From assembly GCF_963676275.1 (NCBI RefSeq), contig NZ_OY781091.1:4471001-4535000 (forward strand): a DNA stretch of 64,000 nucleotides, given 5' to 3'. A model generated the notes under the pieces. The model was not told where the DNA came from and ran no database searches. It saw only the letters and a program-made list of their open reading frames with translations. This DNA is from an uncultured Cohaesibacter sp. (GTDB lineage: Bacteria; Pseudomonadota; Alphaproteobacteria; Rhizobiales; Cohaesibacteraceae). The position numbers were made by a program, and so were the translations under genes. Shown here piece by piece: positions 31,547-53,473 of the stretch. How positions within the stretch are numbered: position 1 is the stretch's first letter; each line of letters opens with the position of its first letter.

Positions 31547-32656
31547 TTGCACCATTGCCCATCGTTAGGAATAGCGATAAACAAGTGCAATTATGACGCA
31601 GCAAACTATTTGGTGCAGTCGATCGGTGCCAACCACCAAATCGCAAATTGGGGACAGACTGTGCTTTCCACCCTGCTCGACAGCATTTCCCACATGGTGA
31701 CAAGGAAAGAAGCCAACTATGGCTCGCCTTCTCTGGAGATTTGCAAGCAGGACGCAGTCGCCCGCATTCTTGGAGAGCATCCCTTATTCTGCCTGCCCTT
31801 CCAGCCAGTCAATTGCCGAAATTATGTTGGCTGGGGTCTCAGATCCGGGCAACATGCAAGGCAAATGGCCCTGAGGCATAATGCACCAGCCCTGTTGCTC
31901 GAAGATGGCTTCCTCCGATCCTTCAACCGCCTTGATCCGCCCCTTGGCATCGCCATAGATGATCTGGGAATCTATTACGATGCCCATGCACCCTCAAGGC
32001 TGGAAAAACTGATCCCGACCAGATTGACCGCCGAGCAGGAAGAGCGCATTTGCGCCATTCTGCAACAATGGAGGCAATTGCGCCTTTCCAAATATAACGC
32101 CGGTTCGGAATATTCCGGCCCCTTGCCCGACAATTATGTGCTCGTTGTCGATCAGGTGCACAATGACGCCTCGATCCGCTTCGGCATGGCCGATAGCGCG
32201 GCATTCCAGTTGATGCTGGATGCGGCCTGCAAGGAAAATCCCGACAGCATAGTCGTGGTCAAGATGCATCCGGATATTTTCACCAAGTCCAAGTCGGGAC
32301 ATTTCGATGTCAGGCAGTTGCAGCAGCGGCAGAATATAATGGTGATTGCGGAAAATTGCCTGCCTTCCCGACTCATAGAGAATGCCAACAGGATATATAC
32401 TGTAACGTCACAAATCGGCTTTGAAGCGCTGATATGGCAAAAACCGGTGCGATGCTTCGGCATGCCCTTCTATGCCGGTTGGGGACTGACCGAGGACCAT
32501 TTGCCGGCACCCGAGCGCCGCACGAAAGTTGATTTTCTTCAACTTGCCATGGCAGCGCTGGTCTTTTATCCACGCTACATAGATTGGCGTATTGGGCAGG
32601 CTTGTGAGATTGAAAGAGCTATTGACTATCTGGCGGAACTCAAGCAAAAAGCTTGA
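31547..32656 (+). CDS. Single-domain KpsC-type Kdo transferase (N-half-like)
   Basis: A capsule polysaccharide synthesis protein of up to 369 residues with one KpsC/LipA-type domain: YVGWGLRSGQHARQMALRHN, LLLEDGFLRSFNRLDPPLGI, DDLGIYYDAHAPSRLE, VVKMHPD and RCFGMPFYAGWGLTED. KpsC builds the beta-Kdo linker on the capsule lipid anchor and normally holds two such domains in about 670 residues. This protein matches one half, and the gene at 42869 the other. The frame starts with TTG at 31547, with AAAGGAGGA about 13 bases before; the first ~50 residues look unconserved, so ATG 31697 is an alternative. A promoter-like AT-rich gap separates it from rkpA. Confidence 0.78.
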   Translation: MHHCPSLGIAINKCNYDAANYLVQSIGANHQIANWGQTVLSTLLDSISHMVTRKEANYGSPSLEICKQDAVARILGEHPLFCLPFQPVNCRNYVGWGLRSGQHARQMALRHNAPALLLEDGFLRSFNRLDPPLGIAIDDLGIYYDAHAPSRLEKLIPTRLTAEQEERICAILQQWRQLRLSKYNAGSEYSGPLPDNYVLVVDQVHNDASIRFGMADSAAFQLMLDAACKENPDSIVVVKMHPDIFTKSKSGHFDVRQLQQRQNIMVIAENCLPSRLIENANRIYTVTSQIGFEALIWQKPVRCFGMPFYAGWGLTEDHLPAPERRTKVDFLQLAMAALVFYPRYIDWRIGQACEIERAIDYLAELKQKA

Positions 32657-32772: not shown

Positions 32773-35700
32773 ATGAGTGACAACTGGGTTGAAGTAATTG
32801 GACGGGCTTGCCGTCTTCCTGGAGCAAACAGTATTTCCGAATTCTGGAATTTGCTGGTTTCGGAAAAATGCAGTGTAGGCGAGATCGGAGCAGACCGTTT
32901 CTCAACCTTCCGCTATTTGCATCCCAAGTCCGGGCAAGCAGGCAAAACCTATACCTTTCGCGCCGGAGTTCTGGATGACGTCTGGGGCTTCGATCCATCT
33001 GTCTTTTCCCTGTCTCCTCGTGAGGCAACACAAATGGATCCCCAGCAACGCCTGTTGCTGATGCTGGTCTGGGAAGCGCTCGTAGAAGCCGGCTTGCCCA
33101 TATCAGAAGTTGCCGGATCCAATATCGGCGTCTTTGTCGGCAATTCTGGCAGCGACCATTCCAACCGCTTCTTCTTTGACCCGGCCAGTTCGGACAGCTT
33201 CATGATGACAGGCAATACCCTGTCGCTTGTGTCCAACCGCATATCCTATGTCTATGATCTTCACGGTCCAAGCTTCACCGTCGATACGGCCTGTTCCTCT
33301 TCACTCGTTGCTCTCGATCTGGCGCTGAAACGGCTTCAGTCCGGAGAGATTGACACCGCCATTGTCGCTGGCGTCAATCTTCTTCTGTCCCCCTTCCCCT
33401 TTGTGGGCTTTTCTGCCGCCTCCATGCTCTCACCACAGGGGCTTTGTCGTCCGTTTGACGAGAATGCCAATGGCTATGTCCGGGCGGAAGGCGCCGTCGC
33501 GCTGGTGCTTCAGCGCAAGGATGCCTTTGACCCGGCCATTCAGAAGAGCTTTGGCCGCATTGTGGCTTCAGGCATCAATTCTGACGGGCGCACATCTGGC
33601 GTTGCGCTGCCCTCAATGGAATTCCAGTCCGCCCTGCTCGGCCAGCTTTATACCGAAACCGGTCTGGACCCCGATGCCCTTGCCTTCATCGAGGCCCATG
33701 GCACGGGGACGCGGGTCGGAGATCCGGCCGAGGCCTTCGCGCTGGGGCAGGTTCTGGGACAGAAGCGGCAAAAGCCGCTGCCCATCGGTTCGGTCAAGTC
33801 CAATCTGGGGCATCTGGAGCCAGCTTCCGGTCTGGTCAGCGTGTTGAAGGCCCTGCTTTCGCTTGAGCATGACCTGCTGCCTGCCAGCCTGCATATCGAC
33901 AGCCCGAACCCGGACATTCCCTTTGACGAGTTGAATCTCGCCCTGAACAGCCACGCGACCGCTCTCGAACCGAGCGAAGAAGTGCGCTATGCCGGCATCA
34001 ACAATTTCGGTTTTGGCGGCACCAATGCTCATGTGGTGGTATCGGACACCAAAGCCCCCCACAGAGCCCAGAGCAGCCAGACCGTCCAGAGCAGACAGAC
34101 CCCATCGGCCTCCTCTGGCAGCCAGACGAGCCTGCCTGAAGCTCAGGAGGCACCATCGCTCTTCGTTCTGACAGCCAGAACGGAAGAGGCCCTCAAGGCG
34201 CTTGCAGCCAGAAGCGCTCAGGCCATTGCCAGCGAGACAGCATCCAGCCTGAAAGACTGGTGCAACGCGGTTGGCTGGCATCGGTCGCTGCTCGATGAGC
34301 GACTTGCCGTCATCTGCCGTGACAAGAAAGATCTTTGCGCAGCCCTTGAGGCTTTTGCCAGCGAGAACAAGAGCCCGGCCCTTATCCATTCCTCCGCTTC
34401 GCGCGCCTCCAGACTGCCCGTATTCGTCTATTCGGGCAACGGCTCGCAATTTGCCGGCATGGAGCTCGAAGCCTATCGGCAGAATGGGCATTTTGCCGAA
34501 AGCTTCGATCTGGTCGACAGCATTTTCACCCCCCTGTCCGGCTGGTCTCTTAAGGAAAAACTGTTTGAAGACACCCTGAAAGAAGACCTCAAGCAAACCT
34601 CGATTGCCCAACCATTGCTCTTTGCCATTCAGGTGGCCCTGACCGAAGCCCTCAAGGCTTCCGGTATCAAGCCCGGAGCGGTGATGGGCCATTCGGTTGG
34701 TGAAGTGGCCGCAGCATGGGCCTCAGGTGCCTTGAGCCTGCAGCAAGCCGTGGAAGTCATCTATTGGCGCTCTCACCATCAGGAAGCCGTCGCCGGAACC
34801 GGCAAGATGGCCGTCATCAAGCTCTCCGAGGCTGAAACCTCAAGCCTTCTCAAGCAGGAAGGGTTTGAGGGCGTTGAAATCTCCGCCATCAACACAGACA
34901 AGTCCCTTACCCTTTCTGGCGAATCCGCAGAGCTGGAAGCCTTTTTGAAGCTGGCCCGCAAAAGACGCCTTGCGGCCAAAATGCTGGATATCAATTATCC
35001 TTTCCATTCCGCAGAAGTGGAACCGATCAAGAAGGGTCTGATTGCCGATCTTGCCGCGATCAAGCCGACAAAGGCCATATTGCCCTTCTATTCGGCGGTC
35101 ACCGGCTCATGCCTTGAAGGCAGCGAGATGGACGGCGATTACTGGTGGCAGAATGTGCGCCAACCGGTCCGCTTCCTCAGCGCCGTGGAAGCCGCCTTTG
35201 CCGATGAACAGACACAATTTCTCGAAATCGGCCCCCGCGCCATTCTGAAAAGCTATATCGGCGAGACGGCCAGAGACCGGACAAAAACCGTCGTTGCCAT
35301 TGAAAGCCTGACCCAGAAGACGCCGCGGGAGATAGACCCTGTCCTCATCGCGGTTAGCCGGGCCATTGCCAATGGCTTGTCTTTCGACAAGGCCGTCATC
35401 TTCGGCGAAAAGCAGGCCTGCTCCGTGCCGCTTCCCAGCTATCCCTGGCAGCTCAAGCCCTTCAAGATCACGCCGAGCAGCGAAGCCTTCGACATTTTCA
35501 ACGACAAGGTCATCCCGCACGCCCTGCTCGGCCAGCAGATCCGCAACGAGGAGCATGTCTGGTCGACCGAACTCGACACCGCCCAGATTCCCTATCTCGA
35601 CAATCACAAGGTCGACGGAAAGGTCATTCTGCCCGGAGCCGCCTTTGCCGAAATGGCCCTCGCGGCAGCCCAGATCGCCTACGGGACAGACCGGGTGGAA

Positions 35701-38700
35701 CTGCGCGACATGGACCTGTTGCAGGCCCTCCCGCTCAGCGGCGAACAGTCAGCCTCACTGTTGACGCGTCTGGACACCACCTCCGGTGTCGTGGAAATTT
35801 CGAGCCGCACCCGTCTGGTGGATGAAGAATGGCAGTTGCATGCCAAATGCCGCGTTGCCAAGATCCCCGGCGATGTGGGCGATGAGTTTGCCGACCACGC
35901 CCTTGATGCACCAGCCCTGACGCTGACGTCCTCGGCCGAGGAAATCGAGGCACTTTACGCCATTTCGCGCGAGTTCGGACTGGATTTCGGCCCCGCCTTC
36001 CAGCGGCTCACCTATTGCCAGCGCCATGGTGATGATTTTATCGAGATCGTTATTGCAGACCGCGATGGCTTTACCTCGAAACGGGAAGAGCTGGCTGCCC
36101 CCTATGCCCTGCATCCTCTCGATTTCGACGCCTGTTTCCATGGTCTCAACAGCCTTTATGAAAGCCTTGAGACCGGCGCGGAAAAGATGGCCTTCATCCC
36201 GGTGCGTTTCGGTCGTCTGCGCATTCTGCAAAGCGGCGCCGCCGTGCGCTCGGCCCGCATCCATGTGATCCGCTCCAATTCCCGCGGCATCAAGGCTGAC
36301 ATCAACATGTTTGCTGAGGACGGCTCTCTGGTCGCCACCCTGCGCGATGGTCGCTTCCGCGCCTCAGCTCTGGTGCAACGTCAGGGGCTAGACCGGTTGA
36401 GCTATTATTATGATTCCCTCAAGCTCGCCCTGCCCGGATCCGACACCCAGCCAAAGCCGCTTGATGGCGTCGCGCTGCTCGAATCAGTCGCCAGCCTTGA
36501 ATTACCCGAGCGCAGCGCCATTGACGACGGCCAGATGCTTCTGCATGCAGCCAGCCGCCGCGGCGCCTATGACATCCTGCACCAGTTCGCCGATGCCAAT
36601 CTCAGGCTCGATGAAACCAGCTTGCCAAAGCTCACGCCCCGTCAGGATCTGGATGGCGAGAATGCCGATGAGGATATCAGAAGCCGATCGATCCATCGCA
36701 AGCAGATTTTCGGCTCCCTCATCGCCATTTGCGAGCAGTCCGGTCTGGTGAAGGCCACCGACGAAGGCTGGGAACTTGCCAGCGAAAGCGGCCTGCCGGA
36801 AACCGCACAGATTTTGCAAATGCTGATGAGCGAGAATCCCAGATGGTCGGCCGAATGCGTCATGCTCAACCATGCGCTAAAACAGATGCCGGACCTCATC
36901 CGCTCCATGGATTACACTTCCGGCGATCAGCCAATGCCGCAGGATCTCTATTCCAATGACCTGTTCGAGCAGCATCTGAGTTCTTCGCCGCTCTATGAGG
37001 CGCATGTGGAACAGATATCCGCAGCCCTTGAGCGCATTCTCGAACAATGGCCTCAGGATCGTCCGCTTCGTATTCTGGAATTCGGCATTGCAGGCGCAAG
37101 ACTGACGAAAGCCATTTTGCCGCTTCTGGAAGAGAAGCAAGGCATTCTGGTTGCTGCCGACACCAACAAGCTGATCATTGATCGCCTGCGTATCCTGTTT
37201 GCCAACTCGATCCATTTCGAAGCCGTTGCGCTGAAATCCGATCTGGAAGCCCTTGAGCCGCACGGACCATTTGATCTGGTCATCTCGGCCAACGGCATTC
37301 AGATGATGGATCAGGCTTCTAGCATGCTGGAGCCCCTGACGGATCTGCTGGCCAGCGATGGCATCATGCTGATGAGCCTGTCCGATGTCTCGGTCTTTCA
37401 GGATCTGGTCTTTGCCCCGTCTGAAAACTGGTTTGACGATTCCGTTGATCCCTCTCTGCCCCTGTCTTGCTATGGCGCGGCAGAAGACTGGCGCGGCTGG
37501 ATCAAAGAGGCCGGTCTTGGCGACGTCAAGCTGTCTCACTTTGCCAATGGCGCAGGCGAGACGGACCTGTCCGGAGCCTATCTGCTGACGGCCACCGGCA
37601 AGCCCGCCACAGCCACAGCTGGCGAAAGTGACATTCCGCTTCTCGATGCGGACCATCGCAGGATCTATCTGCTGCAAGCCGGAGAAAGCGAACAGAATAC
37701 CACCCTCCTTGCGGCCCTTGAGCATCAATTCAAGTCAGCCGAGCTGAACAAGCTCGCGATTGACACGACAGACGCCCTCGGCCAGGCCGCCAGCCTGATC
37801 GCCAAAGGCCCCCATGACGGTGCTCTGGATGTGATTTATGCCGCAGGCGCTGCTGGTGCAGATGCCCTGAACAAACAAGCCTCCAGCTTTGAGAGGCTTT
37901 CCGCTTCCCTGCACCAGCTCGCAGACCTCATTCGAAGCACGGCCGACATATCCATGCGCCTCTGGATCATCGCTCCGGGGGGCTATCCGGACAAGACTGG
38001 AGAGCCCTGTGATCCAGTCCAGAGCGCCCTTTGGGCCTTTGGGCGCACGGTCAGCAATGAATATGAAAATCACGATGTGCGGCTGGTGGATTTTGCTCAG
38101 GATCTGTCTCCTGCCGATCGCAGCGCGCGCCTTGCCCGTCTCATCGAAACGCCGGGCGAAGAGCGCGAAATCCTGCTCAACAGCAGCTCTCAGAATGTGG
38201 TTCGCGTCAGACGCGGCTGGCCACAGGCAGCAAATGGGAAAGCATCACACACTCCTGACGCAGGCTGCCAGCTCTATCATCCGCGCACCGGCTCCTTTGA
38301 CCGCCTGCAATGGATCCCGGTCAAGCGCCGTAAACCCGCCAAGGGCGAGGTTGAAATCGAGGTCGTCGCCTCTGGTCTCAACTTCCGCGATGTCATGTGG
38401 GCGCAGGGCCTGTTGCCAGAAGAAGCGCTTGAAGACGGCTTTGCAGGCCCGACCCTCGGCTTTGAATGCTCCGGTCGTATCACGGCTCTGGGACAGGGCG
38501 TGAAGGGGCTGAAGATCGGCGATCCGGTCATGACGCTTGCCCCTGCGAGCTTTGCCTCGCACGTGACCGTGATGGACAGCGCCATTTCCAAACTGCCAGA
38601 AACGATTGATCTGACAGCTGCGGCAACCATGCCGGTGGCCTTCCTGACGGCCTATTATGCCCTGCATCATCTCGCACGTCTGGAAGAAGGCGAATGGGTG

Positions 38701-40512
38701 CTCATTCATGGCGCGGCAGGCGCTGTCGGACTGGCCGCCGTCCAGATTGCCAAATGGCGCGGAGCACGCATCATTGCAACCGCGGGCAATGAGGAAAAGC
38801 GCAATTTCCTCAAGATGCTGGGTGCAGATCATGTATTGAATACCCGGTCGCTCGATTTTGTCGATCAGGTTCGCTCCATCACAAGACAGGCGGATGGCCC
38901 GGATCAGGAAGGCGTTGATGTGGTCCTCAACTCGCTCTTTGGCGAGGCGATGGAACGCAGCCTTGAGCTGGTGCGCCCCTTTGGCCGCTTCCTCGAACTC
39001 GGCAAGCGCGATTTCTATGGCAACACCCAGATTGGCCTCAGACCTTTCCGCCGCAATATCAGCTATTTCGGCATCGATGCCGACCAGTTGCTGAACAAGC
39101 AGCCCGCGCGGGCCAAGCGTCTCTTTGCCGAATTGGCCGAGCTGATCGGCAATGAGCAATTCACGGCGCTTCCCTATCGCCTGTTTGAAAGCACCGATAT
39201 CGTCGATGCCTTCCGCCTGATGCAGCGCTCGGGTCATATTGGCAAGATCGTCGTCAAGGCGCCTGACCCCATCTCGAGCGCGGGCGATGAAAATAGCTTC
39301 AAGGCCAGCGAAGAAGGCCACCATGTCCTGATCGGTGGGCTGGGCGGTTTCGGTCTTGAAGTTGCCCGCTGGCTTGCCAGCAAGGGGGCAAGATCGATTA
39401 TTCTGACCAGCCGCTCGGGCAAGATGTCCGACGAGGCACTGGCTCTCAAACAGGCACTGGCAAATAAAGGCTGCGCCTTGATGGTCAAGCCATGCGACGT
39501 TTCAAACGAAGCTGCCCTCAAGGCCCTGCTTGAAGACCTGCGCAAGGATCGCCCCATCAGCGGCGTCATGCATATGGCCGCTGTTCTGGATGATGTGCTT
39601 CTGGCCAATATGAGCGATGAGCAGATCGACAAGGTGCTCGGCCCGAAAGTTATCGGCTCTGACAATCTCGACCGGGCCACCCGTCAGGATGACCTTGACT
39701 ATTTCTGGCTCTTCTCCTCCGTATCCGTATTGATCGGCAACCCCGGTCAGGCAAACTATGTGGCAGCGAACAGCTATTTGGATGGCCTCGCGCGCAAACG
39801 TCGTCAGGAAGGTTTGCCAGCCCTCGCCGTTGGCTGGGGCGCCATCACCGATGTGGGCATTCTGGCCAGAGACAAGCAGACTGCGGAAATCCTCGCCAGA
39901 ACCACTGGCGGCATCGAATTCAAGGCAAAGCAGGCACTGGACCAACTTTCCAGACTGCTCGAACAATTGCCATCAGGCACAACACCGGCAGCCATCACGC
40001 TGGCGCCAATGAATTGGGGCTATGCCAGCGACAACCTGCCGATCATGAAAAGCCCGACCTATACTCTGCTCCAGAGGGAAGCCGCCCAGTCGTCAAGACA
40101 TGGCCAGCAGGCGCTGGATGTCGCCAGCCTGATCGAGGGGCTCGACGATGTTGCCGCACGGGGCGAGATCGCCAAGATTCTGGCGCAGGAAGTGGCGGGC
40201 ATTTTCCGCATGCCGGTGGAAGAGATCAATCTCAAACGGTCTCTTACCGACCTTGGCATGGACAGCCTGATGGGTATGGAATTGCGCACCGCAGCCCAGC
40301 AGAAACTCGATATCGAGATTCCAATGGGCGCGATTGCCGACGGAACAACGATCGAGGATATTGCTGCCCGCGTATTGGAACGCATTCGCGGGGAGGCTGA
40401 GAGCGGGCTTTCCTTCACAGAAGAAACCCTTCTGCATCAGCATATTGGCAGCGACAGCGACGCTTCGTCCGTTGCCAGCAAGCTGGCAGAAGTGCGCAAG
40501 AGTGACATTTGA
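32773..40512 (+). CDS. rkpA: Reducing type I polyketide synthase RkpA
   Basis: A 2579-residue multidomain enzyme that should build a long reduced acyl chain on its own carrier. Domains in order: ketosynthase (1-430; Cys174 in DTACSSSL, EAHGTGT, NLGHLE), acyltransferase (about 540-830; Ser641 in GHSVGE, YPFH suggesting malonyl-CoA), dehydratase (about 915-1200; His945 in HKVDGKVILP, Asp1119), a methyltransferase-like region (about 1390-1600; ILEFGIAGARL, degenerate), enoyl reductase (about 1830-2160; HGAAGAVGLAAVQIA), ketoreductase (about 2185-2360; GGLGGFGLEVA, Tyr2329) and acyl carrier (Ser2498 in GMDSLMG). There is no thioesterase, so chain release must be done by another protein, probably RkpG. 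This matches RkpA of the rhizobial rkp-1 capsule region. No strong ribosome binding site precedes the ATG. Confidence 0.93.
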   Translation: MSDNWVEVIGRACRLPGANSISEFWNLLVSEKCSVGEIGADRFSTFRYLHPKSGQAGKTYTFRAGVLDDVWGFDPSVFSLSPREATQMDPQQRLLLMLVWEALVEAGLPISEVAGSNIGVFVGNSGSDHSNRFFFDPASSDSFMMTGNTLSLVSNRISYVYDLHGPSFTVDTACSSSLVALDLALKRLQSGEIDTAIVAGVNLLLSPFPFVGFSAASMLSPQGLCRPFDENANGYVRAEGAVALVLQRKDAFDPAIQKSFGRIVASGINSDGRTSGVALPSMEFQSALLGQLYTETGLDPDALAFIEAHGTGTRVGDPAEAFALGQVLGQKRQKPLPIGSVKSNLGHLEPASGLVSVLKALLSLEHDLLPASLHIDSPNPDIPFDELNLALNSHATALEPSEEVRYAGINNFGFGGTNAHVVVSDTKAPHRAQSSQTVQSRQTPSASSGSQTSLPEAQEAPSLFVLTARTEEALKALAARSAQAIASETASSLKDWCNAVGWHRSLLDERLAVICRDKKDLCAALEAFASENKSPALIHSSASRASRLPVFVYSGNGSQFAGMELEAYRQNGHFAESFDLVDSIFTPLSGWSLKEKLFEDTLKEDLKQTSIAQPLLFAIQVALTEALKASGIKPGAVMGHSVGEVAAAWASGALSLQQAVEVIYWRSHHQEAVAGTGKMAVIKLSEAETSSLLKQEGFEGVEISAINTDKSLTLSGESAELEAFLKLARKRRLAAKMLDINYPFHSAEVEPIKKGLIADLAAIKPTKAILPFYSAVTGSCLEGSEMDGDYWWQNVRQPVRFLSAVEAAFADEQTQFLEIGPRAILKSYIGETARDRTKTVVAIESLTQKTPREIDPVLIAVSRAIANGLSFDKAVIFGEKQACSVPLPSYPWQLKPFKITPSSEAFDIFNDKVIPHALLGQQIRNEEHVWSTELDTAQIPYLDNHKVDGKVILPGAAFAEMALAAAQIAYGTDRVELRDMDLLQALPLSGEQSASLLTRLDTTSGVVEISSRTRLVDEEWQLHAKCRVAKIPGDVGDEFADHALDAPALTLTSSAEEIEALYAISREFGLDFGPAFQRLTYCQRHGDDFIEIVIADRDGFTSKREELAAPYALHPLDFDACFHGLNSLYESLETGAEKMAFIPVRFGRLRILQSGAAVRSARIHVIRSNSRGIKADINMFAEDGSLVATLRDGRFRASALVQRQGLDRLSYYYDSLKLALPGSDTQPKPLDGVALLESVASLELPERSAIDDGQMLLHAASRRGAYDILHQFADANLRLDETSLPKLTPRQDLDGENADEDIRSRSIHRKQIFGSLIAICEQSGLVKATDEGWELASESGLPETAQILQMLMSENPRWSAECVMLNHALKQMPDLIRSMDYTSGDQPMPQDLYSNDLFEQHLSSSPLYEAHVEQISAALERILEQWPQDRPLRILEFGIAGARLTKAILPLLEEKQGILVAADTNKLIIDRLRILFANSIHFEAVALKSDLEALEPHGPFDLVISANGIQMMDQASSMLEPLTDLLASDGIMLMSLSDVSVFQDLVFAPSENWFDDSVDPSLPLSCYGAAEDWRGWIKEAGLGDVKLSHFANGAGETDLSGAYLLTATGKPATATAGESDIPLLDADHRRIYLLQAGESEQNTTLLAALEHQFKSAELNKLAIDTTDALGQAASLIAKGPHDGALDVIYAAGAAGADALNKQASSFERLSASLHQLADLIRSTADISMRLWIIAPGGYPDKTGEPCDPVQSALWAFGRTVSNEYENHDVRLVDFAQDLSPADRSARLARLIETPGEEREILLNSSSQNVVRVRRGWPQAANGKASHTPDAGCQLYHPRTGSFDRLQWIPVKRRKPAKGEVEIEVVASGLNFRDVMWAQGLLPEEALEDGFAGPTLGFECSGRITALGQGVKGLKIGDPVMTLAPASFASHVTVMDSAISKLPETIDLTAAATMPVAFLTAYYALHHLARLEEGEWVLIHGAAGAVGLAAVQIAKWRGARIIATAGNEEKRNFLKMLGADHVLNTRSLDFVDQVRSITRQADGPDQEGVDVVLNSLFGEAMERSLELVRPFGRFLELGKRDFYGNTQIGLRPFRRNISYFGIDADQLLNKQPARAKRLFAELAELIGNEQFTALPYRLFESTDIVDAFRLMQRSGHIGKIVVKAPDPISSAGDENSFKASEEGHHVLIGGLGGFGLEVARWLASKGARSIILTSRSGKMSDEALALKQALANKGCALMVKPCDVSNEAALKALLEDLRKDRPISGVMHMAAVLDDVLLANMSDEQIDKVLGPKVIGSDNLDRATRQDDLDYFWLFSSVSVLIGNPGQANYVAANSYLDGLARKRRQEGLPALAVGWGAITDVGILARDKQTAEILARTTGGIEFKAKQALDQLSRLLEQLPSGTTPAAITLAPMNWGYASDNLPIMKSPTYTLLQREAAQSSRHGQQALDVASLIEGLDDVAARGEIAKILAQEVAGIFRMPVEEINLKRSLTDLGMDSLMGMELRTAAQQKLDIEIPMGAIADGTTIEDIAARVLERIRGEAESGLSFTEETLLHQHIGSDSDASSVASKLAEVRKSDI

Positions 40513-40690
40513 TGTCATCTCTTGCCTTTTCTTCTGGTGAATCGTTACGCTAATACGTAATCTACAGGTTGAAAAACTCGTTATATTTCAGGTGTGCTGA
40601 AGGCGCGGACCATCGCCTTCAGACTGCGACTGTTTGATCTTGTTCCCCACGCCGCAGCCACCAGAGCCGTTTTTAAAAAGGAAGCAATTT

Positions 40691-42058
40691 ATGTCCAAGC
40701 AGCAATTTGATCGGGAGGCCATTCTTAATCTGTCTCGATCAATGGCCAAGGGAGCCCCGACCAAGCCCGCAGCCCATCGTGGCACCCACCACGCCAAGAT
40801 TGATCGCTCCAAGACAGATTTTGCGACCATGGACCTCTATCAGCAAATCACCATTCAGCGCCAGATGGCCGAGAAATTGCAGACCAGAGATCCCTATTTC
40901 GTCCTGCATGAAAGCCGCGCCGGGGCCACGACCATCGTCGATGGCAAGGAACTGATCAACTTCGCCTCCTATGACTATCTCGGTCTGAATGGGCTCGATG
41001 AGGTGCATCAGGCCGCCAAGGATGCCATCGACCAGTTTGGCACCTCGGTTTCCGGCTCCCGCCCGACCTCTGGCGAACGCCCCTTTCATCGCACTCTGGA
41101 ACAACAGCTTGCCGATCTCTATCAGAGCGAAGCGGCGCTGATCTTCGTCTCGGGACACGCAACCAATGTCTCGACCATCGGTGAATTGCTCGGCCCGACG
41201 GATCTGGTCCTGTTTGATGCCTATAGCCACAATTCGGTGACCACCGGCTGCAAATTGTCCGGCGCAACGAGACGGGCTTTCAAGCATAATGATTTCGATG
41301 ATCTGGAACGCATTCTGGAAGAAACCCGCAATGCCCATGATCGCGTCATGATCGTGGTCGAGGGCCTCTATTCCATGGATGGCGACATGCCGGATCTGGC
41401 CCGCCTTGTCGAGCTCAAGGATCGATTCGGCGCCTGGTTGATGGTCGATGAGGCCCATTCCCTCGGCGTTCTGGGGGCCACCGGCAAGGGCCTGTTCGAA
41501 CAGCAGGGCGTTGATCCCCAAAAGATCGACATCTGGATGGGCACCATGAGCAAGACCATGAGCGGCTGTGGCGGTTATATCTGCGGCAATGAGCCCCTGA
41601 TCGACATTCTCAAATTCTTTGCCTCCGGCTTCATGTATAGCGTCGGCCTTTCCGCCCCCCTGTCCGTGGCAGGCTCCAAGTCGCTTGAAATCATGCAGCG
41701 TGAGCCATGGCGCGTTGAAAAGCTCCAGTCCAACGGGCGCTATTTTCTCAAGGCGGCTCAGGCTGCCGGCCTTGATACGGGCCTGAGTGCCGGTTTCTGT
41801 GTCGTTCCGGTCATCGTCGGCGACAGTCTGCGGGCAGTCAAACTGAGCAACAATCTCATGGACCGGGGCATTTATGCTTTCCCGATCACCTACCCCGCCG
41901 TCCCCATGAACAGCGCCCGCCTGCGCTTTTTCATCAGCGCCACTCACAGTGAAGAACAGTTGCAACAGGCCGTGGACATTACCGCAGAAGAGCTGCGCAA
42001 GCTCGAAGACGCGAATTTTTCCATCGCCTCTGCCCTAAGCAACCTGAACGCCGACTAA
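40691..42058 (+). CDS. rkpG: Alpha-oxoamine synthase RkpG (PLP)
   Basis: A 455-residue PLP enzyme of the family of 8-amino-7-oxononanoate synthase, 2-amino-3-ketobutyrate ligase and serine palmitoyltransferase, which condense an acyl thioester with an amino acid and release CO2. The PLP lysine is Lys288 in MGTMSKTMSGCGGYICG; FDAYSHNSV and MVDEAHSLGVLGATGKG are family motifs. The frame opens at 40634, but ATG 40691 has AAGGAAG before it. An N-terminal extension of about 60 residues precedes the catalytic fold and may dock to the RkpA carrier. It sits 178 bases after the PKS, ahead of a reductase, so it likely takes the RkpA chain. Biotin genes are absent, so BioF is unlikely. Confidence 0.9.
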   Translation: MSKQQFDREAILNLSRSMAKGAPTKPAAHRGTHHAKIDRSKTDFATMDLYQQITIQRQMAEKLQTRDPYFVLHESRAGATTIVDGKELINFASYDYLGLNGLDEVHQAAKDAIDQFGTSVSGSRPTSGERPFHRTLEQQLADLYQSEAALIFVSGHATNVSTIGELLGPTDLVLFDAYSHNSVTTGCKLSGATRRAFKHNDFDDLERILEETRNAHDRVMIVVEGLYSMDGDMPDLARLVELKDRFGAWLMVDEAHSLGVLGATGKGLFEQQGVDPQKIDIWMGTMSKTMSGCGGYICGNEPLIDILKFFASGFMYSVGLSAPLSVAGSKSLEIMQREPWRVEKLQSNGRYFLKAAQAAGLDTGLSAGFCVVPVIVGDSLRAVKLSNNLMDRGIYAFPITYPAVPMNSARLRFFISATHSEEQLQQAVDITAEELRKLEDANFSIASALSNLNAD

Positions 42059-42074
42059 AGCGGAAACGGACGGG

Positions 42075-42860
42075 ATGATGCCTCGCTCCATCATGATCAC
42101 GGGCGCCAGTCGCGGGCTGGGAGCTTCTCTGGCAAGAGCCTATGCCGGAGAAGGCGTCCGTCTGATCCTGACCGCCCGCCGGATCGAGGCACTCACAGAG
42201 ACCTGCCGCCAATGCGAAGCGGCCGGAGCGCAAGTGTTGCCTCTGGCGCTGGATCTGGGCATGGATGAAAGCATTGACGACATTCTGGCTCATCTTGTCG
42301 GAAGTGACCTGCCGGATCTTCTGATCGCCAATGCAGGCGTCTTTTCAGGCAGGAGGGCAAATGGCCAGCTTGAAGCGAGCAGTGAGCAGGCCCGCCAGCT
42401 CAGGATAAACCTCACCGGCACAATCGGCCTTCTCGATACGATCGCCCAGCGCATGAAGGAGCGCCGTTCCGGACATCTCGCTCTCATCAGCTCCCTTGCT
42501 GCCATTCAACCGCAACCTGACAGCCCTGCCTATGCCGCCAGCAAAGCGGGGCTGGCGCTCTGGGGACGCTCCATTGGCGAGGATCTTTCCCTGCATGGGG
42601 TCGCTGTCAGCATCATTTATCCCGGCCATATTGAGAGCGACCAGACGGCCATTCATGTGGGCCAGTTACCCGGGCTTTTGCCTGCTGACAAGGCGGCCGC
42701 GATCATTCACAAGGGCATAGGCAAAAGACGGGAACGCATCATCTTCCCGCGCCATCTCTATTGGCTCATTCTCGTCAGCAATCTGCTCCCCGGCAGACTG
42801 AGACGATGGGTAAACCGCCCCTTCAGATATCACGTCTCCCATGAGGAGACACCCCGCTAG
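42075..42860 (+). CDS. rkpH: Short-chain dehydrogenase/reductase RkpH
   Basis: A 261-residue classical SDR: MITGASRGLGASLARAYA binds the cofactor, NAG is at LIANAGVFSG, and the catalytic set is Ser in LISSLAA plus Tyr/Lys in YAASKAG. A hydrophobic segment near the C-terminus (LYWLILVSNLLPGRL) suggests membrane contact, as in 3-ketosphinganine reductases. Placed between RkpG and a capsule glycosyltransferase, it is inferred to reduce the ketone left by RkpG. It starts 17 bases after rkpG and ends nine bases before the next gene. Confidence 0.88.
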   Translation: MMPRSIMITGASRGLGASLARAYAGEGVRLILTARRIEALTETCRQCEAAGAQVLPLALDLGMDESIDDILAHLVGSDLPDLLIANAGVFSGRRANGQLEASSEQARQLRINLTGTIGLLDTIAQRMKERRSGHLALISSLAAIQPQPDSPAYAASKAGLALWGRSIGEDLSLHGVAVSIIYPGHIESDQTAIHVGQLPGLLPADKAAAIIHKGIGKRRERIIFPRHLYWLILVSNLLPGRLRRWVNRPFRYHVSHEETPR

Positions 42861-42868
42861 GAGGGCGC

Positions 42869-43969
42869 ATGGCAGATCAATCCAGAGACTGGATGCAACG
42901 ACCGGCCATCATCTATGGCGTCGGCTTCTGGAACCGCAAATCCATTCGGGGCATGCTTGCCCATTTGCCCGGCAAACTGCGATTCTGTCGCTCCTTTGAG
43001 CGTGCCCTTCTGAAAGCCCGGCAGGCAAATGCCAGCCTGTTCGCATGGACCACCCGCCTCTCGGATGATCAACGCGCCGCTTGCGAGAAAGCCGGCGTTC
43101 CGATTGTGAATGTCGAGGATGGCTTCATTCGCTCCGTCGGCCTTGGCGCAGCCTTTGTGCCCGCCGCCTCGCTGATCATGGATGCAAGCGGCATCTATTA
43201 TGACCCCTCACGCCCCAGCGATCTGGAAATCATGCTCGAACATGACGATGTCAGCGCCGGGGAAAGAGCGCGAGGCGAGGCCTTCCGCAAGACACTCGTG
43301 GAACTTGGCATATCAAAATACAATCTGGGACAAAGACATGACCAGGCGCCGCGCTCAACAGAGCGTCAAGTGATCCTGATCCCCGGGCAGGTCAGCGACG
43401 ACGCATCCATTCTCAAGAGCCGCAGCGACAGCCTTGATCTTCAATCGGGAGAAAATCCCAATCTGTTGCTGCTCAAATGGGTCAGGGAACACAATCCCGA
43501 TGCCTTTATCATTTTCAAGCCACATCCCGATGTCACCAGCGGCCTGCGCAAGGGCGGCCTCTCGGATGAGGAAATGCTGACCTTTGCGGACAAGATTGAG
43601 CGGCAAGTGGATATCATCGCACTGATTCGACAATGCGACATCCTGCACACCATCAGTTCACTCTCCGGCTTTGAAGCATTGCTACGCGGCAAGCAGGTGG
43701 TGGTGCATGGATTGCCATTCTATGCTGGCTGGGGCATTGGCCTTGACCTGACCGCCAGCCCACGCCGAAACAGAAAGCGCACGCTTGATGAGCTCGTGTT
43801 TCTGGCGATGATAAAATACCCTCAATATGTAAATCCGGAAAGCTTTGCAGCATGTGAGGCAGAAGAGACGGCCTGCGCTCTATCAGGGTTAAGAAATCAT
43901 AAAGTAGAATCCCTTAAGGATATCATCATGCTGCATTTGGCAAGACTTGCTTTTAGGCTAGGCTTCTGA
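42869..43969 (+). CDS. Single-domain KpsC-type Kdo transferase (C-half-like; RkpJ-like)
   Basis: A 366-residue capsule protein with one KpsC/LipA-type domain: YGVGFWNRKSIRGML, VNVEDGFIRSVGLGAAF, MDASGIYYDPSRPSDLE, IFKPHPDVTSG and VHGLPFYAGWGIGLDL. It resembles the second half of KpsC more than the first, complementing the gene at 31547. By homology it would add Kdo residues to the lipid-linked capsule start in the cytoplasm at the inner membrane. GGAGGGC precedes the ATG. It closes the rkpA-G-H transcription unit. Confidence 0.8.
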   Translation: MADQSRDWMQRPAIIYGVGFWNRKSIRGMLAHLPGKLRFCRSFERALLKARQANASLFAWTTRLSDDQRAACEKAGVPIVNVEDGFIRSVGLGAAFVPAASLIMDASGIYYDPSRPSDLEIMLEHDDVSAGERARGEAFRKTLVELGISKYNLGQRHDQAPRSTERQVILIPGQVSDDASILKSRSDSLDLQSGENPNLLLLKWVREHNPDAFIIFKPHPDVTSGLRKGGLSDEEMLTFADKIERQVDIIALIRQCDILHTISSLSGFEALLRGKQVVVHGLPFYAGWGIGLDLTASPRRNRKRTLDELVFLAMIKYPQYVNPESFAACEAEETACALSGLRNHKVESLKDIIMLHLARLAFRLGF

Positions 43970-44252: not shown

Positions 44253-45386
44253 ATGCTTAGAATATTTCTCGCTCTGTTCGTTTCAGCCTCCTTGTCGGCC
44301 TGCATGTTTACGCCTAGAGAAGGCCCCCTCTCGACAGAGATCGAGAAGCAAAGCACCCAGAATGACTATCTCGTTGTCGATGTTGATTCGACGATTGTTG
44401 ACGGCCTCTCCCGTTTCAACCCTGTTGGATTGCATACCCAGTTCACTGCCACCAGCCAGCGCCTGCCGGTTTCAACTGTCGGCACAGGCGACGTTCTCTC
44501 GGTTACCGTATTTGAAGCCGATCAGGGCGGTCTCTTCTCTGGCGCAGGTGGAAACAAGGCGGAATTTCCTCATGTTGTCGTCGACAACAAGGGCGAGATC
44601 TCACTTCCCTATTCAGGCACCATCAAAGTCAAGGGCAAGACACCGCTGCAAATCCAGAATCTCGTAGTCGAGAGCCTGGAAGGCAAGGCGATCCAGCCGC
44701 AGGCCATGGTCAATGTTGTTCGCAACGAGAATAACGTCGTCACCATGAGCGGCGATGTCACGAAGCCGGGCCTTTACCCCCTTTCCAACAAGGGCATTCG
44801 TCTGCTTGATGTTGTGGCTCAGGCCGGTGGCACGAAATTTCCTGCGCGCGAAACCTATATCATCTTGATGCGCGGCTCTCGTCAGGGCGTTCAATTGCTC
44901 GAAACCGTGATGGATCAGCCGGACGAAAATATCTACGTATCCAGAGGCGACCGGATTTACCTGTCCCACGATCCGCAACGCTACACCGTTTTGGGCGCCG
45001 TTCAGAAGCCTTCGGTCTATACCTTCAACTCTTCTACGGTCTCCGTATTGGAAGCCATTGCGGCTGCTGGTGGTCTCAACGATAACCGGGCAGACGCCAC
45101 AGGCGTATTCGTGTTCCGTTATGAGGAGCCGAAGGTCCTTGATACGATGAATATTCATTACACCCGGCAGGTGCGCGGCAAGGTTCCAACTATTTATCGT
45201 ATTAACATGAAGCATGCGCAGTCCTATTTTTATGCGCAGTCATTCCATCTGCAGGACAAGGACTCGGTTTTCGTTTCGAACGCACGCTCGGTTGAAATCG
45301 GAAAACTGCTGCAGCTGATGAATATGGCAACCTCTTCCGTAAGGAATATCGCCGTTACCGGCAAGAATCTCGAGATATATGACTAA
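44253..45386 (+). CDS. Wza/KpsD-type polysaccharide export lipoprotein (OPX)
   Basis: A 377-residue outer-membrane polysaccharide export protein. A lipoprotein signal peptide ends in LSAC with Cys17 as the acylation site. A Poly_export domain follows (STVGTGDVLSVTVFEADQGG, VVDNKGEISLPYSGTIKVKG), then SLBB-type repeats (MSGDVTKPGLYPLSNKGIRL and VLGAVQKPSVYTFNSSTVSV). It forms the periplasmic and outer-membrane exit channel for capsule. It has its own 280-base upstream gap, so it probably has its own promoter; the ribosome binding site is weak. No KpsM, KpsT or KpsE gene is in the window. Confidence 0.9.
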   Translation: MLRIFLALFVSASLSACMFTPREGPLSTEIEKQSTQNDYLVVDVDSTIVDGLSRFNPVGLHTQFTATSQRLPVSTVGTGDVLSVTVFEADQGGLFSGAGGNKAEFPHVVVDNKGEISLPYSGTIKVKGKTPLQIQNLVVESLEGKAIQPQAMVNVVRNENNVVTMSGDVTKPGLYPLSNKGIRLLDVVAQAGGTKFPARETYIILMRGSRQGVQLLETVMDQPDENIYVSRGDRIYLSHDPQRYTVLGAVQKPSVYTFNSSTVSVLEAIAAAGGLNDNRADATGVFVFRYEEPKVLDTMNIHYTRQVRGKVPTIYRINMKHAQSYFYAQSFHLQDKDSVFVSNARSVEIGKLLQLMNMATSSVRNIAVTGKNLEIYD

Positions 45387-45442: not shown

Positions 45443-46855
45443 GTGGCCCAGGAAATGCGAACAACGTCAGAAGTTGGCGACAAAAGAGTGTTTCTCTTTC
45501 TCCAGGGTCACCCTTCCTTTTTCGCGCGCAACGTTGCCAACCAGCTTGAGAAAAGCGGGCATACGGCACTGAGAATCAATTTTTGCGTTGGCGATGCAAT
45601 TCTCTGGCGTGGCAGGAAGGCCTTCAATTATCGACTGCCCTTCTCCAGATGGGAGAAATATCTGCGCGCCTTCATCGCAAAGCATGGCGTAACGGATATC
45701 ATCTATTACGCGGACAGAAAGCCCTATCACCAGATAGCGGCAAAGGTTGCAGACGATCTAAAACTGCCCACCTATGCTTATGAATTCGGCTATCTTCGCC
45801 CGGACTGGATCACTCTGGAAAGAGGCGGCATGTCTGCCTTTTCGCACTTTCCGACCGACCCCGCCAAGATTACGGAAATTGCCAGCCAGCAGCCGGAACC
45901 GGATCTGCAACAAAAATATCCCTATACCAAACCCAGAGAAATTGTCTTTGAAGTCAGCTACAATCTCCTGAGCTATTTCCTCTGGTTCTTCTATCCCTTC
46001 TACAAGGCGGATCGCTATTACAATCCGCTCGTGGAATATATCTCCGGTATCCCGGGCCTCTTTCTTGAAAAGAGAAGAAATATCGCAGCCAGAAAGCTGG
46101 TGACCCGTCTCGGGCGCAGGCGGCATCCATTCTTCATTTTCTCGCTGCAACTGCAAAGCGACTATCAACTCAGGTCCAACGCGCCCTTCTCTCATCAGAA
46201 AAAGGCCATTGAAATGGCCTTGAAGTCCTTCGCCCGCACTTCGGAATCAAACACCGATCTGATTTTCAAAGCCCATCCGCTGGACAATGGCTTGGAGCAT
46301 TGGGGACCTTTCATCCGCAAGAAGGCAAGAGAGCTGGGCATCGCCCACCGCGTGCATTTCATCGTTGGTGGCAACCTGACCTTCATGCTCAAGCATGCCA
46401 AGGGCTGCGTGATGATCAACAGCACCGTCGGTCTGCATTCGATCCGCTCAGGCTGCCCCGTCAAAGTGCTCGGTCATGCCGTCTATGACATTGAAGGCCT
46501 GACCCATCAGGGCAATCTTGACAGTTTCTGGACCCATCCGAAATTGCCAGACCCGGCCTTTGTTGAGGATTTCGTAAAAGCCGTCGCCAGCACCATTCAG
46601 GTGAAGGGAAACTTCTTTACCACCAAGGGCAATCGAGCCGCTGTTCCGGCTTTTGCCAATCGGCTGATAGAGAAGAAAGTGAATGCCTTTGGCGCGTTTG
46701 AACCGATGCCGCCAAGGCTGACCACACTGGTGGCCAACGAGCCGCCGCTCTATGCTCCCAAACCGGTCACCGTGGAAGTTGAGCCTGTCGAGACAAAGGA
46801 AATCATCTCCGACAGCCTGCCGGTCTTTGGCAATACTGCCGTCATCAAATCCTGA
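45443..46855 (+). CDS. KpsS-type capsule polysaccharide synthesis protein
   Basis: A 470-residue protein of the capsule polysaccharide synthesis family that includes KpsS, which adds the first Kdo to the lipid anchor. FLQGHPSFFARNVANQLEKS, YEFGYLRPDWITLERGGMS, LIFKAHPLDNG and CVMINSTVGLHSIRSGCPV are family stretches. A ~60-residue Pro/Val/Glu-rich tail follows the conserved part. The start is GTG at 45443 with AGGG upstream; ATG 45455 is possible. It lies 57 bases after the OPX gene and works with the two KpsC-type proteins. Confidence 0.85.
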   Translation: MAQEMRTTSEVGDKRVFLFLQGHPSFFARNVANQLEKSGHTALRINFCVGDAILWRGRKAFNYRLPFSRWEKYLRAFIAKHGVTDIIYYADRKPYHQIAAKVADDLKLPTYAYEFGYLRPDWITLERGGMSAFSHFPTDPAKITEIASQQPEPDLQQKYPYTKPREIVFEVSYNLLSYFLWFFYPFYKADRYYNPLVEYISGIPGLFLEKRRNIAARKLVTRLGRRRHPFFIFSLQLQSDYQLRSNAPFSHQKKAIEMALKSFARTSESNTDLIFKAHPLDNGLEHWGPFIRKKARELGIAHRVHFIVGGNLTFMLKHAKGCVMINSTVGLHSIRSGCPVKVLGHAVYDIEGLTHQGNLDSFWTHPKLPDPAFVEDFVKAVASTIQVKGNFFTTKGNRAAVPAFANRLIEKKVNAFGAFEPMPPRLTTLVANEPPLYAPKPVTVEVEPVETKEIISDSLPVFGNTAVIKS

Positions 46856-47096: not shown

Positions 47097-47882
47097 ATGA
47101 GCAACAGCCCCTCTCTGCCGATTTCCGTCTTCATCATTACGCTGAATGAAGAAGATCGTATTGAAATGGCCATTTCAAGCGTTATCGACTGGGTCGATGA
47201 AGTCATCGTCATTGACTCAGGATCGACGGATCGCACCGTTGAACTGGCTGAGGGCTGCGGCGCAAAAGTGGTGTTCAATCCATGGCCCGGTTACGGCCTG
47301 CAAAAGCGCCATGGTGAAGATCTCTGCCGCAATGACTGGCTTCTCAATATTGACGCCGACGAAGTGGTCTCTCAGGAGCTGCGCGACGAGATCACGGGTA
47401 TTTTCGCCAAAGGCCCGCAAAGCGATATCTACAAGATTGAGATTCTCGATGTCTTTGCCCATGAAAAGCACCCCAAAAGCTGGGCCTATGGCTATTGGCA
47501 ATATCGCCTCTATCATCGATCAAAGGGGCGCTTTTCGGAATCGACCGTCCACGACACCGTCCGCCCCTATCCCGACGCCAAAATCGCCACACTGCAAAAG
47601 AAAATGGAGCATCATTCCATCCGATCCATTCAATGGTCGGTGGAGAAGATGAACCGTTATTCCGACATGCAGCGGGATGACATGATCACGCGCGGCCGCC
47701 ATATCAGCCCTTGGCGTCTGGTCTTTGAATTTCCGGTATCATTCCTGAAAAGTTACCTGTTGCGACAGGGATTCCGCTATGGCTTCTGGGGCATCGTGAT
47801 CGCCCACAATTATGCCTATTCCCGCTTTCTGCGCGTGGCCAAGCTCTATGAATATGAGCTTTTGCAGCGCGCGCAAAAATAG
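47097..47882 (+). CDS. Family 2 glycosyltransferase (WaaE/KdtX-like)
   Basis: A 261-residue GT2 enzyme. SVFIITLNEEDRIEMAISSV opens the GT-A fold, VIVIDSGSTDRT and NIDADEVVS carry the nucleotide-sugar and metal-binding Asp residues, and WAYGYWQYRLYHRSKGRFSE matches the WaaE/KdtX subgroup, which adds glucose to lipopolysaccharide core. It may act on core or capsule. A 240-base gap without any recognisable gene separates it from the KpsS-type gene. Confidence 0.85.
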   Translation: MSNSPSLPISVFIITLNEEDRIEMAISSVIDWVDEVIVIDSGSTDRTVELAEGCGAKVVFNPWPGYGLQKRHGEDLCRNDWLLNIDADEVVSQELRDEITGIFAKGPQSDIYKIEILDVFAHEKHPKSWAYGYWQYRLYHRSKGRFSESTVHDTVRPYPDAKIATLQKKMEHHSIRSIQWSVEKMNRYSDMQRDDMITRGRHISPWRLVFEFPVSFLKSYLLRQGFRYGFWGIVIAHNYAYSRFLRVAKLYEYELLQRAQK

Positions 47883-48073: not shown

Positions 48074-48883
48074 ATGGGAACGGGCGGAAATGCCATCATG
48101 ACCAAGAAGGCGCTAAATCAAAGGCAAGAAAAAATCGTCGAAATAGCCCGGTCAGAAGGTTTCGTCGGCATCGAGAAGCTGGCCGCTCTGTTTGACATAA
48201 CGCCACAGACGATCCGCCGCGACATCATGCTGTTATGTGAGCAGGGAATCCTGAGGCGCTATCATGGCGGCGCCAGCCTCATATCCAACACGCGCAATGT
48301 TGACTATACCGAACGCCGCGAAGTCATGAAGGAAGAAAAGGCCAGAATTGGTCGCATGGTTGCCGCCCATATTCCCGATGGCGCCTCTCTTTTCCTCAAT
48401 ATCGGCACCACCACAGAGGCGGTGGCCGACGCCCTTCTCGATCACAAGAATCTCAATGTGGTGACCAACAATATCAATGTCGCAGCCAAGCTGAGTCAGC
48501 GCGAAAGTTTTGATGTCTCCATCGCTCCGGGCCATGTCCGCCCCAGAGATCTGGCCGTCATCGGAGAAGCCACCATCGATTTCATCAAGCAGTTCAAGGT
48601 CGACTTCGGCGTCATTGGCATATCCGGCATTGACGAGGATGGCACCCTGCTGGATTTCGACTATCGCGAAGTGCGCGTGGCGCAAACGATCATAGAAAAT
48701 TCACGCACAACCTTTCTGGCCACCGATCACACCAAGTTCGGCCGCCGGGCGATGGTCAAGCTGGGCAATATCACTGATCTGGACGGCCTTTTTCTGGACC
48801 GTATGCCGCCTGCCCCCTTTGATGAACTGATCCATTCATCGAGCGTTACAGCGCACCTTGTCGATGAAGACGACATCTTCTGA
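48074..48883 (+). CDS. glpR: DeoR-family glycerol-3-phosphate regulon repressor
   Basis: A 269-residue DeoR/GlpR-family regulator. The N-terminal helix-turn-helix (about residues 15-70) includes GFVGIEKLAALFDITPQTIRRDI and ILRRYHGGASL; the C-terminal DeoRC sugar-phosphate sensor has LFLNIGTTTEAVADAL and VIGISGIDEDGTLLDFDYRE. The open frame reaches 47987, but the ATG at 48074 has GGAGAGG at an ideal distance. It precedes glpD by 420 bases and is predicted to repress the glpD-F-K operon until glycerol-3-phosphate binds. Confidence 0.92.
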   Translation: MGTGGNAIMTKKALNQRQEKIVEIARSEGFVGIEKLAALFDITPQTIRRDIMLLCEQGILRRYHGGASLISNTRNVDYTERREVMKEEKARIGRMVAAHIPDGASLFLNIGTTTEAVADALLDHKNLNVVTNNINVAAKLSQRESFDVSIAPGHVRPRDLAVIGEATIDFIKQFKVDFGVIGISGIDEDGTLLDFDYREVRVAQTIIENSRTTFLATDHTKFGRRAMVKLGNITDLDGLFLDRMPPAPFDELIHSSSVTAHLVDEDDIF

Positions 48884-51904: not shown

Positions 51905-51928
51905 TCTTGCGCTGAACAAAAACAATAG

Positions 51929-53473
<1,545 letters not shown>

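Follow-up and report, generated by a model that had tools for sequence, protein, structure and literature searches.

Why should a polyketide synthase (PKS), an alpha-oxoamine synthase (AOS) and a short-chain dehydrogenase/reductase (SDR) be encoded in the middle of a capsule locus? We analysed a stretch of 64,000 nucleotides, here called the window, from an uncultured Cohaesibacter sp. (contig NZ_OY781091.1, positions 4,471,001 to 4,535,000), in which the three genes lie side by side on the + strand at 32773..40512, 40691..42058 and 42075..42860. The genome is a single contig of 5.03 Mb; among named organisms, Cohaesibacter species are its closest relatives (AOS identity 89-90%). A first-pass annotation had suggested that the AOS releases the PKS chain with an amino acid, that the SDR reduces the product to a sphinganine-like base, and that this base could be the lipid anchor or acceptor of the capsule. 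The chemistry is supported, and is already published for a homologous cluster in Pseudomonas fluorescens (PMC12134224). What is new here is the capsule link, for which three comparative tests give support: a sphingoid-lipid terminus, with a dedicated KpsS clade, for capsules linked through 3-deoxy-D-manno-octulosonic acid (Kdo). From the phylogeny of KpsS, the placing of LtaS-like genes and co-occurrence we infer the anchor or acceptor role, and we consider it probable that a Kdo-linked capsule is built on lipid made by this locus.

A predicted route to sphinganine

The PKS (2579 aa), of the RkpA/SgaA type I kind and predicted to be iterative, is a single fully reducing module that ends at its carrier domain and has no thioesterase, as had been read at first. 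Pfam models place the ketosynthase (KS) at 32788..33897 (PF00109, PF02801), the acyltransferase (AT) at 34420..35286 (PF00698), the dehydratase at 35518..36366 (PF21089, PF14765), the enoylreductase at 38341..39255 (PF08240, PF00107, PF13602), the ketoreductase at 39316..39849 (PF08659) and one C-terminal acyl carrier (ACP) domain at 40180..40374 (PF00550). Aligned with other PKSs (22 in all), the window protein keeps the C/H/H residues of the KS, GHSVG and PFH in the AT, HxxxGxxxxP in the dehydratase, the nucleotide motifs of both reductases, the ketoreductase Tyr, and DSL in the ACP (LGMDSL). The methyltransferase-like domain of the earlier reading survives as a degenerate stretch (37015..37527), where PF13489 and PF08242 match at E 3e-4, below cut-off. 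Its S-adenosylmethionine motif is degenerate here and in most of the 22 PKSs (that of L033 is near-canonical in look), which makes active C-methylation of the chain unlikely. AT motifs of the GHSVG/PFH type are linked by rule to malonyl specificity. With its domains and residues intact and a malonyl-type AT motif, the PKS is expected to make a straight saturated chain. A similar motif rule was applied in PMC3908369.

The AOS, of the RkpG/SgaB type (PF00155), has the expected pyridoxal phosphate lysine in a GTMSK motif, together with the signatures HN[SC] and RLRFF. Its frame spans 40634-42058 from the first TTG; we favour the ATG at 40691 because the relatives L001 and L002 likewise begin MSKQQFDR. 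The nearest solved structure is a serine palmitoyltransferase (SPT; 3a2b), tied with KBL. By its place in the tree and its signatures, the enzyme is a predicted serine C-acyltransferase that would draw its chain from the PKS ACP. The RkpH-type SDR (PF00106; YxxxK intact; 35% to its counterpart in the Pseudomonas plasmid locus L049) is a predicted 3-ketosphinganine reductase. A fold search with it listed no ketosphinganine reductase, which is uninformative either way. The hydrophobic C-terminal segment once ascribed to it turned out to be moderate (best 19-residue Kyte-Doolittle mean 1.14) and without a clear membrane span; a membrane-spanning tail is unsupported by this profile. Searches of the genome found one further oxoamine synthase with RkpG as query (ALAS-like, labelled by eye), no SPT-family match reaching E 1e-100, and one phosphopantetheinyl transferase (159-aa frame).

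Of the systems known, that of P. fluorescens MYb115 comes nearest; according to PMC12134224 (2025) it needs the iterative PKS PfSgaA and the AOS PfSgaB for its C24, C26 and C28 sphinganines. The same source reports that purified PfSgaB makes 3-ketodihydrosphinganines from acyl-CoA surrogates and L-serine, which it prefers almost exclusively over Ala and Gly; that PfSgaC, an SDR, is the presumed reductase; that phosphoglycerol-sphinganines are the most likely identity of lipids heavier by 154 Da; and that homologous clusters number 6,101. The first two steps read from the window are shown in this cluster, with L-serine as the amino acid, and like the window it combines a type I PKS, an adjacent AOS and an SDR; the PKS of the window is predicted to be iterative as PfSgaA is, and its SDR may be KDSR-like, as that of the cluster is. 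The cluster is published as one for secondary-metabolite sphingolipids, with no capsule role considered in the main text, where the terms 'capsul' and 'rkp' have 0 occurrences. Locus L049 has the order AOS, PhyH, KpsC, GNAT, LtaS-like gene, SDR, KpsS, KpsC, then KpsF, KdsB and KdsA. Its spacing from AOS to SDR, five genes, matches that between RS19800 and RS19775, the locus tags of PfSgaB and PfSgaC in MYb115, and from this spacing we infer that MYb115 has the same neighbour genes. In the window, unlike L049, the SDR directly follows the AOS, and LtaS-like, PhyH and GNAT genes are absent from the locus.

Among 385 genomes of the class, a PKS stands directly upstream in 14/14 loci (13 genomes, own included) that have an AOS of at least 49% identity; this adjacency is more than chance. 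All 22 PKS-adjacent AOSs, those of the window, Sinorhizobium and Pseudomonas among them, fall into a single clade (98/98). The Pseudomonas member is that of L049, not the PfSgaB sequence itself; the gene order of L049 fits the PfSga cluster, and the shared clade is in line with a sphinganine-like base. AOSs fused to a carrier domain sit near this clade (L005 is grouped with these rows although Pfam finds no carrier domain in it). Some AOSs without a PKS in their stretch (L042, L043, L044 and L051) also lie near it. The fusions comprise fatty acyl-AMP ligase (FAAL)-ACP-AOS proteins in Planctomycetes (L003 4471-7833, L004 7865-11224), a full PKS-ACP-AOS protein in Planktothrix (L046 8560-16155) and a KS-AT-ACP-AOS protein in Streptomyces (L047 11395-16215), and by their domain make-up they would be single-protein relatives of the RkpA/RkpG pair.

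In the fungal fumonisin system (Fum1/Fum8/Fum13), a reducing PKS chain is released by an AOS and the ketone is reduced by a KDSR-like SDR; the amino acid is alanine. The parallel with Fum8 and Fum13 drawn in the first-pass annotation is apt, though the nearest known system is bacterial and the fumonisin one is not known to have a polysaccharide link. PMC12134224, which names Fum13, draws the same comparison for the SDR. Canonical bacterial SPT, which works with a separate ACP and acyl-ACP synthetase, is likewise an AOS that begins sphingolipid synthesis with serine and a chain bound to ACP (PMC9386255). The window AOS differs from it in clade and in the two signatures, its chain would be PKS-made and not ligase-loaded, and it reaches 305 of 500 bits against the canonical SPT family NF047599, below the curated cut-off. 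The swf sponge PKS clusters were rejected as a match, since their authors separate them from wcb/rkp (PMC3908369).

Kdo transferases and the lipid pathway

Flanking genes of KpsC and KpsS type had been noted. Both are present, with two KpsC halves as the immediate flanks and KpsS further on at 45443..46855. The order on the + strand is KpsC N-module gene, PKS, AOS, SDR, KpsC C-module gene, Wza-like gene, KpsS and a family 2 glycosyltransferase. KpsC is one two-module protein in E. coli; in the window it is split either side of PKS-AOS-SDR. The first half (31547..32656; PF05159; start codon uncertain), a putative single-module beta-Kdo transferase, matches the N module of full KpsC at 41% vs 32% for its C module, and the second (42869..43969; PF05159), also a single module, matches the C module at 43%. 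The nucleophile Asp motif is kept in both (VVDQVHNDAS and GQVSDDAS, respectively). A Wza/KpsD-like polysaccharide export protein (44253..45386; PF02563, SLBB domains) follows. KpsE, KpsT and KpsM (27%, 46% and 30% to reference proteins) are encoded at C1:4275079-4277786, about 225-240 kb from the locus. The genome thus holds the gene set of a Kdo-linked, ABC-exported (group 2 type) capsule: KpsS, both KpsC modules and KpsM/T/E. KpsS puts the first Kdo on lipid (PMC10148158, PMC7694667), and a 2025 review describes Kdo-linked capsules as built on phosphatidylglycerol (PMC12220298). The window shares with E. coli group 2 initiation on (lyso)phosphatidylglycerol the KpsS, the two KpsC modules with their Asp motif, and KpsMTE in the genome (PMC7694667, PMC10148158); it differs in that its KpsS belongs to another clade and that a sphingoid-base pathway lies between the KpsC halves.

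The KpsS-like protein of the window (PF05159; NF050054 below cut-off) is, by the trees, a predicted first beta-Kdo transferase of a sphingoid-linked clade. Groups were fixed by PKS-AOS presence before tree building. In a tree of 28 rows, all 14 KpsS from PKS-AOS records fall on one side together with two LtaS-linked ones (95/98), and the 12 others, including E. coli, fall opposite. The two come from loci without a PKS, L051 (Acidisoma, which has an AOS) and L080; one of the 12, that of G022, comes from a genome with a weaker, PKS-less AOS on a different contig. This tree covers 19 of the 28 class-sample genomes with a Capsule_synth match, nine weaker or partial ones being left out (G361, G040, G052, G074, G204, G218, G310, G319, G381). 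In a second sample of 24 new rows, 11/11 KpsS from genomes with an AOS lie inside the group vs 2/13 from those without (98/93; p 3e-5). The two exceptions, G658 and G680, are of one family and have an LtaS-like gene beside KpsS. These rows derive from 58 phylum-sample Capsule_synth genomes that gave 30 loci; 23 further genomes, none with an AOS at 1e-80, stand outside the tree, and the second KpsS copies of G620 and G623 were omitted. As a control, the KpsC N modules (7 rows from PKS genomes vs 10) reject such a grouping (approximately unbiased test, p-AU 6e-5), and the C modules (25 rows; five changes, p-AU 0.20) neither hold nor reject it. Thus, the lipid-facing enzyme tracks the lipid pathway more closely than does the N module of the elongating enzyme.

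The placing of LtaS-like (PF00884) genes, checked by hidden Markov model (HMM), agrees with the trees. Such a gene occurs in the KpsS stretch in 20/29 rows inside the KpsS group and in 0/21 outside (p 2e-7 by rows; 3e-4 after near relatives were collapsed by hand). The counts omit G137 and G070 (short contigs); the gene of G041 is about 13 kb away from KpsS, and flanks are cut by contig ends in several genomes, e.g. G169, G343, G063, G513 and G545. Among solved structures, searches with two of the proteins, from L050 and L045, put the phosphoglycerol transferase GacH first and lipoteichoic acid primase next. Residues E, T, D and H are invariant, at the active-site places of LtaS. These genes fit the phosphoglycerol-sphinganines of MYb115, and they fit the (lyso)phosphatidylglycerol glycerol that bears Kdo in E. 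coli. In G464 the SDR and LtaS-like genes lie beside KpsS and the PKS-AOS pair is on another, megabase-size contig, a layout to be expected if one pathway is divided between two sites. An SDR is also beside KpsS in G506 (PKS-AOS on the same contig, about 14 kb apart) and in G513 and G629 (different draft contigs).

Co-occurrence was counted in two samples that share some genomes and differ in the Capsule_synth threshold. In the class sample (385 genomes; Capsule_synth E 1e-10), a strong AOS with PKS occurs in 13 genomes, Capsule_synth in 28 and both in 7, that is, 7/13 vs 21/372 (Fisher p 6e-6), and the distance between AOS and Capsule_synth match in these seven is about 0.2 to 8 kb. The phylum sample (398 genomes; Capsule_synth 1e-40; AOS E up to 1e-115, chosen after seeing a gap in the list) has a strong AOS in 17 genomes, Capsule_synth in 58 and both in 14 (14/17 vs 44/381; p 2e-10).

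The proposed capsule lipid weighed against other explanations

We propose the following sequence. The PKS would extend a starter with malonyl units under full reduction, giving a long saturated chain that stays on the ACP. The AOS would take this chain and condense it with L-serine, with loss of CO2, to 3-ketosphinganine; since the condensation would itself release the chain, no thioesterase is needed. The SDR would then reduce the 3-keto group to give sphinganine. The sphinganine, to which in most relatives an LtaS/GacH-like enzyme would add a phosphoglycerol, would stand in for lyso-phosphatidylglycerol, which it would resemble in its single chain and in a phosphoglycerol head with a glycerol able to accept a sugar. 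KpsS would add the first Kdo to this lipid, the two split KpsC modules would extend the Kdo linker, the polymer would follow, and the KpsMTE encoded elsewhere would export it. The PKS and AOS steps are shown for PfSgaAB in P. fluorescens and are carried over to the window by homology; reduction by the SDR is presumed both there (PfSgaC) and here. The replacement of lyso-phosphatidylglycerol by (phosphoglycero-)sphinganine as Kdo acceptor is suggested by comparative genomics, and all of the capsule chemistry given here is a prediction from sequence.

Several observations weigh against this proposal. An HMM of 11 members finds no RkpI-type LtaS-like gene in the window, and the two Sulfatase-family genes of the genome are not of the LtaS-like type, which leaves the phosphoglycerol step without an identified enzyme in this genome. 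In six further genomes of the KpsS group no LtaS-like gene was found either; such genomes may lack the head group or make it by another route. KpsS works inside the cytoplasmic membrane and LtaS-type domains on its outer side, which bears on the order of events. The AOS occurs without Capsule_synth (KpsS/KpsC) in 6/13 class-sample and 3/17 phylum-sample genomes, free sphinganines exist in MYb115 (PMC12134224), and the rows of the KpsS and LtaS counts are not independent samples. In the six class-sample genomes, other envelope-glycan genes lie near the AOS in most of the loci: GT1 (L035), UDP-glucose dehydrogenase and Wzz (L036, L037), KpsM/T/E (L038) and GT21 (L029). The neighbourhoods of L030 and L032 hold nothing telling.

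The strongest alternative is that the sphingolipids made by the cassette are free membrane or signalling lipids, like those of MYb115, and that its placement in a capsule locus reflects only shared regulation or co-transfer. MYb115 does contain free sphinganines and, most likely, phosphoglycerol-sphinganines, the six PKS-AOS genomes without Capsule_synth fit such a role, and a GT21 gene stands beside one of the cassettes. We nevertheless find this explanation unlikely. In two samples KpsS sorts with the pathway, unlike the KpsC N modules; G464 has both loci, PKS-AOS and KpsS, although on different large contigs; an SDR lies beside KpsS in four genomes (G464, G506, G513, G629); and rkp-1 is required for export of K polysaccharide or poly-Kdo in Sinorhizobium (review PMC4881576). 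Whole-cluster co-transfer as the sole cause of the KpsS pattern is made less likely by the N-module control and by the unlinked G464 loci, and the C modules leave room for it.

A second alternative takes the PKS product to be an ordinary fatty acyl group, for a phospholipid-type (lyso-phosphatidylglycerol) anchor or for capsule acylation, with the AOS and SDR acting on something else. Petrovics et al. (1993) are said, by the title of their paper, to have described fatty-acid-synthase-like rkp genes. The rkp-1 region has long been interpreted as fatty-acid-synthase-like with a specific lipid carrier, and the title of Fraysse 2005 names a phospholipidic anchor. This alternative is improbable in our view: none of the eight genes scanned with Pfam shows a thioesterase or a separate acyltransferase, all 14 class-sample loci have the PKS next to the AOS, Planktothrix has the two as one protein in which the ACP precedes the AOS, and PfSgaB is a serine-preferring SPT (PMC12134224). 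That RkpG is a BioF- or KBL-type enzyme of biotin or threonine/glycine metabolism is very improbable and was rejected, since all curated NCBIfam cut-offs are missed, including that of its top-scoring family bioF (TIGR00858; 355 of 426 bits), and the genome has no BioB above cut-off; the tie with KBL in structure is set against PKS adjacency and the AOS clade.

Sinorhizobium rkp-1 (rkpA, G, H, I, J), another of the closest known systems and one with a capsule role, has PKS, AOS, SDR and KpsS-like genes in the order of the window (39% to the S. meliloti PKS; 53%, 31% and 45% for AOS, SDR and KpsS-like gene, the last named RkpJ by its place in the gene order). The window has no RkpI-type (LtaS-like) gene and has two KpsC half-genes around PKS-AOS-SDR; since RkpI is missing, we call the locus rkp-1-like, not rkp-1. 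Sphingolipid mutants of P. gingivalis carry a reduced K-antigen capsule, for which the authors consider dihydroceramides a possible anchor (PMC9045371). This is a precedent for a tie between sphingolipid and capsule, but P. gingivalis uses an SPT.

Beyond Cohaesibacter, we lean, by a modest degree, towards the idea that rkp/wcb-type capsules of Alpha-, Beta- and Gammaproteobacteria have sphingolipid anchors, with a very-long-chain sphinganine from PKS-AOS-SDR, usually dressed with phosphoglycerol to mimic lyso-phosphatidylglycerol, and a dedicated KpsS clade that starts the capsule. If this is true, the published phosphoglycerol-sphinganines of P. fluorescens are capsule-anchor precursors, and Kdo-linked capsules have a second lipid terminus, of relevance to rhizobial symbiosis. 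The open-access literature searched offers no agreed product for the fatty-acid-synthase-like rkp genes, and it yielded no work joining rkp/wcb genes, KpsS and sphingoid bases; PMC9386255 has rkp and sphingolipid terms, with RkpF appearing there as a known ACP. Joining the rkp genes to the 2025 PKS-sphinganine pathway would offer a concrete molecule, an enzyme-level test (the KpsS acceptor) and a possible reason for the phosphoglycerol-sphinganines of P. fluorescens.

Related loci and neighbouring genes

Among relatives of the AOS locus, those of the Burkholderiales type have an LpxC-family deacetylase between PKS and AOS (L050 17022-20016, L054 16910-17836, L196 8385-11423), and L050 and L196 have a GNAT gene after the AOS; extra tailoring of the sphingoid base is possible. 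In L029 (7031-8038), from a genome without a Capsule_synth match, a GT21 gene of the ceramide-glucosyltransferase family and a Rieske oxygenase lie beside PKS-AOS-SDR, hinting at a glycosphingolipid from the same base. E. coli UTI89 (L094 34177-40445) carries a set of FAAL, reductase, ACP and SPT that adjoins an lptF/lptG-annotated pair about 30-40 kb from the kps genes; PMC9386255 describes an E. coli ACP that serves SPT. Where loci lacked annotation, ORF ends were set by a simple purpose-made caller.

Short KpsC proteins that match the C module only also occur in other PKS/AOS loci (L040, 388 aa; L041, 432 aa; also L031, L051, L052, L098 and the longer L080); L082, from a genome without PKS-AOS, likewise shows a match to the C module only. 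In the tree, the KpsS of the window has its closest relatives outside Cohaesibacter in G620 and G623, and both genomes carry a pair of neighbouring KpsS-like genes (L193 9622-12358, L194 114-2952). KpsS and an LtaS-like gene occur with a fatty-acid-hydroxylase-like gene and no PKS in Acidisoma (L051 11040-13822), which also has an SDR and an AOS of a neighbouring branch, and in G256 (L156/L157). The LtaS-like stretch of S. meliloti Ak57 (L045 20194-21806) has no gene in the PLSDB table and holds two overlapping frames.

Directly downstream of KpsS in the window lies the family 2 glycosyltransferase (47097..47882; + strand; PF00535), whose place in the unit is uncertain. After it, 48074-53473 holds apparent genes of glycerol use, labelled by eye (a DeoR-type regulator, glycerol-3-phosphate dehydrogenase, aquaglyceroporin and glycerol kinase), for which we claim no tie to the phosphoglycerol step.

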